Shown piece after piece: positions 45,331 through 49,828 of a stretch of DNA of 55,410 nt. Under the pieces are notes generated by a model. The model was not told the origin of the DNA, made no database searches, and saw only the letters and a program-made list of their open reading frames with translations. The DNA lies in contig NEWT02000039.1 in the NCBI GenBank assembly GCA_002869925.2, positions 62,887 through 118,296 of the forward strand. The letters run 5' to 3'. Both the position numbers and the translations under genes were made by a program. Numbering within the stretch: position 1 is the stretch's first letter; every line of letters begins with the position of its first letter. The DNA comes from Nitrospira sp. CG24A. GTDB lineage: Bacteria > Nitrospirota > Nitrospiria > Nitrospirales > Nitrospiraceae.

Positions 45331-47718
45331 CTAGAGTGCTCCTTCGGGGATTTGATCAAGCTTATAGAAATCTACCGGGTCCAGTCGGCGCTGAGTTGCT
45401 TGAGTCGGTTCGCTGCCTTTGGTAAAGAGCTCGACGGTGCTCGCTTGCCCTTCCTGCTCATCCTCAAGAAGCCCCGTCGACGGATCGACCTTGACGAACG
45501 TGACGCCCTCTGGAATGGTAAAGGCCACGACCGGAAGCGGCTTGAGCGCGGCCTGCATGAAATTGATCCAGATAGGCAGCGCGGCATGCGCCCCCGATTC
45601 CGTTTCGCCGAGTGACCGTCGATCGTCAAACCCGACATAGATGCCTGCAACCAAGTTCGGCGCACCGCCGATAAACCAGGCATTGATAAACTCATCGGTG
45701 GTTCCGGTTTTCCCTGCAACCGGCCGCCCGATCCCTTTCGCCGCCTGCGCGGTCCCCTTTTGAACCACGTCTTCCATCATGTTGGTAATCAAGTATGCCG
45801 TTTCTTTCGAGATGACTGGAATGGCTTGCGACTCCGCCTGTTCAAGCACCTGTCCCGCGTTGTCCTTCACGGACAGGATCCCATGGGGTTCTGTGCGATT
45901 CCCCTGGTTCAGAAACACACTATAGACGGAGGTCAGTTCCATCAGCCCGACGGACGATGAGCCCAGCCCCAAGGACAGATCCGCCGCCAATGGACTGGTG
46001 ATCCCAACCGTTTTCGCAAACTCGATGACACTCTTGACGCCAACTTTATCCAGTAAGCGAACCGTCGCGAGGTTGTGCGAATGGGCCAGCGCGTCCCGCA
46101 AACTCACCATGCCATGGATCTTTCTTCCATAGTTCTCCGGCTTCCACGTTTTCTCATCCTGTTCCTGCGCATAGACGACCGGCGCATCGAGGATCACCGA
46201 CCCGGGACTCATCCCCTGATTCATGGCCGTCGCGTAGATGATCGGTTTAAACGCGGACCCGGGCTGACGATGCGCCTGCACCGCCCGATTGTATTCACTG
46301 CGACCGAAATCGTAGCCGCCTACCATGGCTCGAATCTCGCCTTTGGCTGGCTCCAGCGCAATCAATCCTCCCTCAATCAGAGGAGTCTGTTCCATTTGCA
46401 CGTGGACCATGTCACGATCCAGTTTCTTCACCATGACCTCAATGACATCACCGGGCTTGAGTATGTGCTTAAGATTCTGATTGACGACGACATCTTTCGC
46501 CAAATCCGGCCCCGTCAGACGGCGCTTCGCCCATGCCATATCGTCAAACGCAAGTTTTGTCACCATCGAGCCAACCTGCACCAGAAAATGGTCCTTCCCC
46601 ACTCTGGTGACGAACCCTTCGCGATAATCCCCCACCTTCAGAATCAAATCCCCCTCTGCGACAACAGGGAACGGGGCTGGCGCAGTCACATCGACCGTCC
46701 GAAGCGGACCACGCCACCCTTGGCGCTTGTCCAATTCGCGCAGGCCAGCCGCGAAAGCCGCTTCAGCAGCCTTTTGCATCTCCATGTTCAACGTCGTATA
46801 GACTTTAAGCCCGCCCTTGTATACGGTCTCTTCACCATACTTCGCGACGAGCAACTGTCGGATATATTCCACAAAGTACGGCGCAGCCTGTTCAATACCC
46901 GGACGACGGAAATTGAGGATCTCCGCCGCAGCCTGTTCACGTTCTGTCGGAGTAAGGAACTTCGCCTCTTCCATGCGCGCCAGGACATGCTCCTGTCGCT
47001 TTTTTGCGCGGTCGTAGGCCTTGAAGGGCGAATAATGGTTCGGCGATTTCGGGAGTCCCGCCAGAAATGCGGATTCTCCAACCGTGAGAGCGGAGAGATC
47101 TTTTCCGAAATATGTTTGCGCCGCCGTCGCGACCCCGTAGGCGCCTTGCCCGAAGTAAATCTGATTCAAATACAGCTCAAGAATTTGGTCTTTCGTCAGG
47201 ACCAATTCCATTTTATAGGCCAGAATGAGCTCACGAACCTTGCGGTCGAAGGTACGTTCGGACGACAGGAACAACGATCGCGCCAATTGTTGGGTAATCG
47301 TGCTGGCTCCTTCGACCTTGCTCCCTCTGCGCACATTCGTCCAGGCCGCGCGAAGCATGCCGATGTAGTCGAGGCCGGGATGCTCAAAGAACCGGACATC
47401 TTCAACCGCGATGACCGCACGCCGCAACCGTTCAGGAATGTTTGCCCCCGTAGTTAGAATGCGCCGTTCGATGAAAAATTGACCGATGAGCTTCTGATCA
47501 GCCGAATAGACCTGCGTCACCAGGCTGGGCTGATAGGTCCCCAATTGGTCCAACGCGGGAAGGTCTTTTGAGAAGTGCCACAGCAACCCGCCCGCTGTCA
47601 GCCCACCGATCAAGGCGATCGCACCCAGGCTCAGCAGCACAATCTGCCACCAGCGCCAGGGGCGTCGAGGTGGCGGTTGACGAGACGTATCAGAGAGTTG
47701 TACGGGCCGATCTATCAT
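45331..47718 (-). CDS. mrcA: Penicillin-binding protein 1A
   Basis: A 795-residue bifunctional peptidoglycan synthase. A membrane anchor (VLLSLGAIALIGGLTAGGLL) precedes a GT51 glycosyltransferase domain with catalytic Glu106 in AVEDVRFFEHPG and the GASTITQQLARSLFL, ELYLNQIYFGQGAYGV motifs. An OB-like insert follows (about residues 340-460, HFLVQVGSMVTKLAFDD). The transpeptidase has the nucleophile Ser near 488 in RQPGSAFKPI, an SHN motif (AHSHNLATV) and KTGTT. It is divergent from typA, and repeat copy 8 abuts its stop. Confidence 0.95.
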   Translation of the reverse strand: MIDRPVQLSDTSRQPPPRRPWRWWQIVLLSLGAIALIGGLTAGGLLWHFSKDLPALDQLGTYQPSLVTQVYSADQKLIGQFFIERRILTTGANIPERLRRAVIAVEDVRFFEHPGLDYIGMLRAAWTNVRRGSKVEGASTITQQLARSLFLSSERTFDRKVRELILAYKMELVLTKDQILELYLNQIYFGQGAYGVATAAQTYFGKDLSALTVGESAFLAGLPKSPNHYSPFKAYDRAKKRQEHVLARMEEAKFLTPTEREQAAAEILNFRRPGIEQAAPYFVEYIRQLLVAKYGEETVYKGGLKVYTTLNMEMQKAAEAAFAAGLRELDKRQGWRGPLRTVDVTAPAPFPVVAEGDLILKVGDYREGFVTRVGKDHFLVQVGSMVTKLAFDDMAWAKRRLTGPDLAKDVVVNQNLKHILKPGDVIEVMVKKLDRDMVHVQMEQTPLIEGGLIALEPAKGEIRAMVGGYDFGRSEYNRAVQAHRQPGSAFKPIIYATAMNQGMSPGSVILDAPVVYAQEQDEKTWKPENYGRKIHGMVSLRDALAHSHNLATVRLLDKVGVKSVIEFAKTVGITSPLAADLSLGLGSSSVGLMELTSVYSVFLNQGNRTEPHGILSVKDNAGQVLEQAESQAIPVISKETAYLITNMMEDVVQKGTAQAAKGIGRPVAGKTGTTDEFINAWFIGGAPNLVAGIYVGFDDRRSLGETESGAHAALPIWINFMQAALKPLPVVAFTIPEGVTFVKVDPSTGLLEDEQEGQASTVELFTKGSEPTQATQRRLDPVDFYKLDQIPEGAL

Positions 47719-47856
47719 GATTGCGCGGGATAACCCTTGAGGGCAGCCGAATTCCTGAGAAGATTCTCACGGCCACCATACCGTGGAGGCCCTCAAAACT
47801 CAAGATTCAAGCCGGTGTCAGCGACGCGCTGCCTGTGTCGCTTCTCCTAACATCGC

Positions 47857-47922
47857 TTGTGTAGGCCTCGCCCTTCGGGTATACTACTGTCCGACGCCTG
47901 GGTTTCTGGGCGTCTTTTTTTT
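47857..47922 (+). promoter_or_regulatory. typA promoter followed by an intrinsic-terminator-like hairpin
   Basis: -35 TTGTGT (47857-47862), a 17-bp spacer, -10 TATACT (47880-47885). Transcription would start near 47892, at the base of GACGCC (47893-47898) / GGCGTC (47909-47914) followed by eight T residues (47915-47922). This is a textbook terminator fold sitting 20 nt before the typA ATG. Confidence 0.65.
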
Positions 47923-47941
47923 GGAGCATGCAGCAACATCT

Positions 47942-49828
47942 ATGGATCAGACAGCCACAACGGAATCTCCCGTGACCACTCAACTCGAACCGAAAGAACG
48001 CCGGAGCGATATACGAAATATCGCGATCATCGCCCACGTCGACCATGGCAAGACGACCCTGGTCGACGCCGTGCTCCGACAGACCCATGTCCATCGCAAG
48101 ATCGACGATATGGGCGAACGGATCATGGACTCGATGGACCAGGAACGTGAGCGCGGGATCACCATCAGGGCCAAGAACGCCAGCGTAATCTACAAAGGCG
48201 TGAAGATTAATATCGTCGATACACCGGGACACGCCGACTTCGGCGGTGAAGTCGAACGAACGCTACGCATGGTGGACGGCGTCCTCATCTTGATCGACGC
48301 GAAAGAGGGCCCCATGCCGCAGACAACCTTCGTGTTGCGGAAGGCCTTAGCGCTAGGCCACAAGGCCATCGTGGTCATCAACAAGATCGACCGCCCTGAC
48401 GCGGTCATCGATGACGTGGTGAACCGGACCTTCGACTTGTTTGTCCATCTCGGCGCCACGGACGAGCAGCTCGATTTCCCAATCGTCTACACGGCGGCGA
48501 TCAAGGGTACGGCCACGCTTGATATCAATAAGCCCGGCACGGACATTACGCCGCTCCTCGATACCGTACTTGAAAAGATCCCGGCGCCGGCCATCAACAC
48601 CGATGCGCCGCTCCAGATCCTGGTCCTCTCCCTGATTCAGGATCTCTACAAGGGCAAGATGGGTGTGGGGAAGATTCAATCCGGATCGATCGCCCGCAGG
48701 CAGAACGTGGTCGTCATCGGAAAGGATGGCGCACAGTTCTCCGGGAAAGTATCAGACCTCGCCGTCTACTCCGGCCTCGAACGGACAGATACGGAACAAG
48801 CTCAGGCAGGAGAAATTGTCGCAGTCGCCGGCCTGGACGAGGTGAGCATCGGCGATACGATTGCCGACGCGGAACATCCGGTCGCACTGACCCGAGTCAC
48901 GGTCGATGAGCCGACCGTCCAAATGACCTTTTCCGTGAACAATAGCCCGTTCGCCGGACGGGAAGGCAAATACCTGACCTCGCGGCATTTGCGCGATCGG
49001 CTCTTCAAAGAACTCGAAACCAACGTGTCGTTGCGCGCACAGGCAACGGACAGTGCGGATAAGTTCCTCGTCGCCGGCCGTGGCGAACTGCATCTCGGGG
49101 TCTTGATCGAACAAATGCGCCGGGAAGGATACGAACTGCAAGTCTCACAACCGGAAGTGATTGTCCACCGGGATGGAGACAAGGTCCTCGAACCCTACGA
49201 GGAACTGACCATCCAGGTTCCGGAAACCTATCAAGGCACCGTAATTGAAGAACTCGGCAAACGCCGCGGCGAGTTACGCCACATGCGGCTAATCCATTCC
49301 GATGCCGGGCCGAGCGAAATGCACCTGGAATACCACATTCCCACCCGTGGCATCATGGGGCTCAAAAATCTCTTGGTCGCCAAGACTCGCGGGACCATTA
49401 TCATGCACCATGTGTTCGTCGCATATGAACCGGCGGAGGAGCGCGACCTCGTGGTGGCGACACATGGGTCACTCGTGGCACACGAAGACGGCGTCAGCAC
49501 CGGCTATGCCATCTTTATGACCCAAGAACGGGGCACCATGTTTATCGGCCCTGTCGTGGACGTCTATCGCGGAATGGTGGTCGGCGAGAACAGCCGGGAC
49601 GAAGATATGGACGTCAACGTCTGCAAAGAGAAACACCTGTCCAACATGCGCGCATCAGGCACCGATGAGGCATTGGTTCTCACGCCGCCACGGGAAATGG
49701 GCTTAGAGTTCGCACTCGAATATATCGGCCCGGACGAGCTGGTTGAGGTGACCCCGAAGAGTCTGCGTATCCGCAAGCGACTCCTCAACCCGGATGACCG
49801 CCGCAAGGCCAGAAAATCCAGTAAATAG
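47942..49828 (+). CDS. typA: Translational GTPase TypA/BipA
   Basis: A 628-residue ribosome-binding GTPase involved in stress and cold adaptation and 50S assembly. G1 is AHVDHGKTT at 31-39, the switch II region is [15 protein letters not shown], and NKIDRPDA is G4. The EF-Tu domain II and EF-G-like C-terminal domains are present ([29 protein letters not shown] and [13 protein letters not shown]). The frame extends 53 codons upstream, but the family start is ATG 47942, since the leader contains a promoter and hairpin. There is no strong ribosome-binding site. Confidence 0.94.

Follow-up and report, generated by a model that had tools for sequence, protein, structure and literature searches.

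The typA locus

The window, that is, the whole stretch of 55,410 nt of Nitrospira sp. CG24A DNA analyzed here, carries the gene of the translational GTPase TypA (BipA) behind a short leader in which a promoter, a hairpin and a run of T residues follow one another (Table 1). All 61 relatives that were searched have a TypA-like match, weak paralogues included, and the named relatives among these are Nitrospira.

Table 1. Features of the typA leader and its surroundings (window positions), with the thiC riboswitch used for comparison (positions in L178)
Feature	Position	Strand	Remarks
Divergent neighbor, class A penicillin-binding protein (pbp1A-like)	45331..47718	-	Pfam Transgly, Transpeptidase and PCB_OB over cut-off
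-35-like hexamer TTGTGT of the typA promoter	47857..47862	+	GCTTGT block conserved in 85 distinct leaders
TTCGGG block directly 5′ of the -10	47874..47879	+	conserved beyond ordinary spacer
-10 hexamer TATACT	47880..47885	+	from sequence and conservation
Predicted transcription start, 7-8 nt past the -10	47892..47893	+	from spacing
Terminator-type hairpin (arms 47893-47901 and 47906-47914, loop 47902-47905, core CGCC/GGCG)	47893..47914	+	
T8 run (U-tract) adjoining the stem	47915..47922	+	from sequence and conservation
GGAG, possible Shine-Dalgarno, long 15-nt spacing	47923..47926	+	weakly conserved outside the genus
typA (bipA), translational GTPase, 628 aa, ATG 47942-47944	47942..49828	+	
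TPP riboswitch with hairpin + T8 terminator, before thiC	L178 15392-15543	-	

The promoter, TTGTGT-17 nt-TATACT (47857-47885), agrees with the sequence-only reading, including the length of its spacer. It matches 8 of 12 consensus positions, the -35 being weak (3/6), and was absent from our strict promoter scan because the cut-off there was 9/12. Conservation across leaders (below) supports the predicted promoter. Seven nucleotides separate the -10 from the hairpin, GACGCCTGG-GTTT-CTGGGCGTC. A GACGCC/GGCGTC hairpin near +1 had been proposed; its predicted position stands, but the stem is of 9 bp rather than 6, the inner pairs being partly G-U. The eight T residues expected after it are there (TTTTTTTT, 47915-47922), and they end 19 nt before the ATG, not 20. 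With 9 bp, a predicted -14.9 kcal/mol in context and T8 directly after, the stem has the sequence of an intrinsic terminator, and a terminator scan, a loose and permissive one, lists it first (9 pairs).

Ahead of its ATG the typA frame stays open across the hairpin, as far back as a GTG at 47783 (47783-47941). It is as RNA and not as protein that the leader is conserved, and we have therefore taken the ATG at 47942 as the start. Further upstream (47774-47804), the block CACCATACCGTGGAGGCCCTCAAAACTCAAG is conserved across the genus. Its minus strand reads TTGAGT-17-TATGGT, likely the promoter of the divergent penicillin-binding protein.

Conservation in Nitrospiraceae

The leader set started from 142 Nitrospiraceae loci, of which seven were set aside (five without the N-terminus and two truncated). 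The remaining loci gave 105 distinct 150-nt typA upstreams, identical ones being counted once since the genome sets overlap. A hairpin lies a few nucleotides past a TATA-type -10 in 103 of the 105, and at the expected place 89 have at least seven T's, so that the conservation asked for by the sequence-only reading is present in the family. One more leader (L107), which brings the count to 90, has promoter, hairpin and T7 further upstream (1277-1320), about 200 nt from typA; it could be an insertion or a different leader. In L028/L114, from the same genome, the hairpin and T8 are retained and the promoter is replaced by sequence resembling the neighboring gene, the result of a rearrangement, a deletion or an assembly chimera. 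The T-run is of five or six in 11 distinct leaders, several with an A ahead of the T's, and shorter than five in three (L083, L084 and L236), where the hairpin is retained. Since three leaders lack a T5 run and 11 have T5-6 alone, the T-run is dispensable in places. An eroded run (ATTTTT or broken) beside a retained stem was seen in L070, L072, L074, L076, L080, L083, L084, L236 and L237; such subclades offer a natural test of the function of the stem vs. that of the T-run.

A profile was made of 85 distinct leaders. Rows had to contain TATA[CG]T and CGCC/GGCG, which 104 out of 108 did, and the conservation of these two elements in the profile is therefore by construction; the T-run, the -35 and the TTC block were unselected. 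Information is concentrated in GCTTGT, TTC-GGG-TATACT, CGCC, GGCG and the T-run, whereas most positions of the spacer, of the discriminator and of the sequence following the T-run carry less than 0.5 bits. The TTCGGG block (T in 85/85 and C in 80/85 at two positions) is unlike a TGn extended -10. The distance from the -10 to the base of the stem is 5-8 nt in 73 of the 85 leaders and 11 nt in the other 12. In most leaders the stem would thus be placed at about +1 to +3, where a 5′-terminal stem-loop is expected.

Covariation of the stem

The covariation alignment had 76 of 77 distinct segments (L028 was left out, and L077 and L093 were dropped beforehand). Five of the nine stem pairs show compensatory change on both sides and the four core pairs are invariant, CGCC/GGCG being identical in all 76 rows. 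Paired cells amount to 90.2%, vs. 82.8 in shuffled alignments and 43-58 (maximum 57.9) when the pairing is slid, and the covariation score was reached by none of 500 shuffles. RNAalifold, unprompted, gives the same helix two pairs shorter. On a tree of typA coding sequences (93 rows; L028, L114 and L246 left out), three variable pairs go through no fewer than 19, 15 and 18 changes of state, mostly staying paired, and the class of the T-run changes 8 times.

Occurrence outside the family

In f2, a family of the same order, three of seven loci (L031, L036 and L037) carry, behind a -10-like box, a hairpin with T6-7 whose sequence is unrelated, and the upstream neighbor is a divergent transglycosylase gene, as in Nitrospira. 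The other four have no hairpin element ahead of typA. At the level of the order, the element is absent from nine of ten loci of families f3 and f4, L041 alone having a weak one. Twelve loci (L261-L272) represent other orders of the class, and 11 of them have a hairpin with T5-T9 before typA. Some lie behind a co-directional gene (L272 by Pfam, L263 by ORF) and could therefore be 3′ terminators; among the 12, Pfam suggests a divergent neighbor in L264 (below cut-off), L269 and L270 alone. In L265, a gene for a BrnT-type ribonuclease toxin (543-839, 73 bits) lies beside typA. In other classes a strong hairpin was found in five of 20 loci, and in at least one of them (L286) the preceding gene runs in the direction of typA. 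Across the wider phylum the majority of the loci sampled are without the element, and the upstream stretch of E. coli bipA that was compared has no such hairpin and T-run. The absences in f3/f4, in four of the seven f2 loci and in most of the wider phylum mean that typA does not generally depend on the element, which is either old or recurrent, and not universal.

Rarity in the genome

Runs of at least seven T's number 38 in 400 kb of contig C29 and three in the window. Only two in these 455 kb, one in each, adjoin a hairpin of -12 kcal/mol or better; five first-order random sequences, each as long as contig stretch and window together, had 0, 1, 0, 0 and 0 in the same scan. The two are the element of the typA leader and, on C29, a hairpin with T8 that serves a TPP riboswitch (RF00059, 70.5 bits) as terminator and expression platform. 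The ORF 3′ of the riboswitch we take, from its sequence, to be thiC. The pattern TAWAMT-N20-42-T7 has a single match in the 3.36-Mb genome, at typA; the reversed control pattern has five. A 134-nt segment folds no better than its shuffles (z 0.45), and the folding energy of the whole leader is therefore no evidence for the element. On contig C27 (69685-69703, minus strand) the genome also has a run of 19 T's, far longer than the other T-runs seen in it, which could be real or an assembly artefact.

We considered whether the element is one of many. Among the best 150 first-look candidates per genome, the R1 model has one match each in 21 of 23 family genomes, and the two missed, G006 and G013, are also without a full typA match. 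Among the same candidates there was no match away from typA, and a regulon of like elements was rejected on this ground. Sequence searches agree: GGCGTCTTTTTT has two other sites in the genome, neither with a like hairpin, and of the two sites of TTCNGGTATACT the second is without one. A known Rfam element was likewise rejected, as no family reaches its gathering score in the leader.

A probable terminator at the start site

Of the three roles proposed at the outset (attenuation, thermosensing and 5′ protection), attenuation is the best supported, the T-run being conserved like the stem and the TPP riboswitch terminator being comparable. We lean toward the view that an intrinsic terminator abutting the start site attenuates typA and that the same hairpin caps the mRNA that is read through. 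Here we infer promoter use at +1 (about 47892-47893), termination and its regulation. The transcript would begin with a complete terminator, its first 22 nt or so making the hairpin and the next eight the U-tract, with the start codon some 19 nt past it. A share of the polymerases would release an RNA of about 30 nt; the others would read through and make typA mRNA with the hairpin as its 5′ end. With a terminator at +1, the polymerase would only just have entered elongation, and termination may or may not be efficient at that stage.

Since the T-run and the stem are conserved together and the TPP attenuators of the clade are alike, termination is the likeliest role. In 25 loci these attenuators are mostly a hairpin with T5-T8 (L221 and L226 have none by our scan, and in L227 and L228 the element is interrupted or weak), and the thiC riboswitch should make a useful positive control for attenuation in the clade. 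Ordinary 3′-end hairpin terminators number three in 400 kb of C29 (L165-L184), as far as rough gene calls tell. A rho gene is present, and this genome may rely mostly on Rho for termination.

Alternative readings

The main rival of attenuation is a protective 5′ hairpin. On that account, the stem at +1 shields the mRNA from 5′-end-dependent decay, there is little termination, and the U-run serves as a single-stranded landing site for the ribosome (S1). That the hairpin of most leaders starts around +1 to +3 fits this as well as it fits attenuation, the stem is retained in three distinct leaders with a broken T-run, and 5′ UTR stem-loops stabilize several bacterial mRNAs (PMC7509114). But 89 of the 105 distinct leaders have at least seven T's abutting the stem, more than a protective hairpin needs, and the only other strong hairpin with T8 in 400 kb of the genome is a riboswitch terminator. 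We regard a purely post-transcriptional cap as a serious though rather unlikely explanation. Attenuation and 5′ protection may also operate both at once.

The stem could also be read as DNA: GACGCC-N10-GGCGTC over +1 to +22 would be a repressor site and the T-run incidental. The core, invariant in all 76 aligned rows, would suit an operator. G-U states are however frequent (27 G-U at pair 19/39 and 50 U-G at pair 24/34 of the 76 rows); as intermediates these mean nothing for a DNA palindrome, and they point therefore to RNA. Conservation extends to the T-run, the stems of other families are unrelated in sequence, and neither the R1 model (best 150 candidates per genome) nor GGCGTCTTTTTT gave a second copy. 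An operator is thus improbable.

Scarcely more credible, and if anything a little less so, is an ordinary 3′ terminator of an upstream gene or of a small RNA. The element does look like one, and the best sub-threshold Rfam match, over 47863-47929, is to the small RNA suhB, weak at 19.4 bits against a cut-off of 41. But the penicillin-binding protein gene upstream is divergent, so the hairpin is not its 3′ terminator; the neighbor is divergent in f2 too, and the hairpin keeps a fixed distance to a conserved promoter that abuts it.

An RNA thermometer controlling translation of typA had been suggested, and BipA does matter at low temperature in E. coli, as passages of one study describe (PMC8313970). 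Temperature by itself, however, is predicted to leave the stem folded, at -22.2 kcal/mol at 4°C, -13.5 at 37°C and -8.7 at 55°C; only at 85°C does its energy come close to zero. The ribosome-binding site lies outside it. On the stability and the position of the stem, thermosensing by melting was rejected as very improbable indeed.

Chance or a sequence artefact has nothing to recommend it beyond the permissiveness of the terminator scan and, given the single TAWAMT-N20-42-T7 match, the covariation, the family-wide conservation and the rarity of hairpins with T7, its probability is negligible; on these comparisons, the leader element is not chance.

Possible control without a sensor

Leader terminators are common, and they normally sit behind a sensor. 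In the typA leader the hairpin begins at the predicted +1, and we found neither a sensor nor an alternative antiterminator fold of the kind that riboswitches and classical attenuators have. Since no RNA would lie 5′ of the hairpin, a classical competing antiterminator would be impossible, and since no sensor fits there, control, if any, would come through initiation or a factor acting in trans. Three routes can be envisaged: the kinetics or start-site choice of RNA polymerase, abortive RNAs with the sequence of the 5′ arm, or a trans factor. A cold-shock protein is a candidate for the last, and the genome has one gene with a cold-shock domain. CspA-family proteins are reportedly antiterminators, going by the title of work by Bae from 2000. 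For E. coli CspD, one study describes a weakening of intrinsic termination, in leaders such as tnaC among others, and a rise of thiM, not of thiC (PMC9765468). E. coli BipA is needed for maturation of the 50S subunit at low temperature, in the passages of the study already mentioned (PMC8313970). Purely as speculation, control by a cold-shock protein would fit that role of BipA in 50S assembly.

In its strongest form the proposal is that initiation itself sets typA expression, because the 5′ arm of the terminator is the initially transcribed sequence. Starts 1-2 nt into the stem would weaken the terminator, as would pairing of abortive RNAs with the 3′ arm or binding of a cold-shock protein to the arm as it emerges; moving the start 2 nt into the stem changes its predicted energy from -14.7 to -9.5 kcal/mol. 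We consider such a sensorless attenuator an unlikely possibility. If true, TypA output would be coupled to nucleotide levels, escape kinetics or cold without a riboswitch.

The attenuator that we favor deserves attention on more general grounds. A family-wide, covarying start-site terminator before one gene only would, if true, be a minimal attenuator, where control could act only through initiation or trans factors. The element would also provide a handle on the control of a cold and stress translational GTPase in nitrifying bacteria.

Comparison with known systems

The open-licence PMC literature held nothing joining typA, Nitrospira and a terminator, nor anything on Nitrospira transcription start sites together with attenuation. 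Nitrospira and intrinsic terminators met there only in unrelated work, and, judged by title, it had no study of a bipA-leader terminator.

One close parallel is the 5′ UTR of IspZ/ispU in E. coli, also with an intrinsic terminator, which has a 6-bp stem and eight U's, and, in the sections that deal with it, gives little read-through and a short RNA, a known sRNA sponge detected by RNA-seq (PMC7815308). The typA hairpin itself begins at the predicted +1 and is known from its sequence alone, whereas the IspZ short RNA has been detected (PMC7815308, same sections). Within the clade, the thiC TPP riboswitch attenuator resembles the typA leader in having a GC-rich hairpin of similar stability followed by T5-T8. 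But thiC has an aptamer 5′ of its terminator; the typA leader leaves no space for one, and no Rfam family matches it at gathering score.

The T7 phi10 leader, known for tiny abortive RNAs, reportedly has a terminator hairpin near the start site, as Lee, Nguyen and Kang are said to have described in 2010. The likeness extends to a 5′ arm that can equal abortive transcripts; the polymerase there is that of a phage, and the typA element has been read from DNA only. Stabilizing stem-loops of the ompA type, said to have been described by Emory in 1992 (cited in PMC7509114), likewise lie right at the 5′ end and leave few nucleotides unpaired there. A conserved U-tract is reportedly not part of them; typA has one. 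Finally, in pyrC and pyrD of E. coli, switching of the start site alters a hairpin at the 5′ end and thereby controls translation. In typA, too, the choice of start would change the 5′ hairpin, but what it would control is termination.
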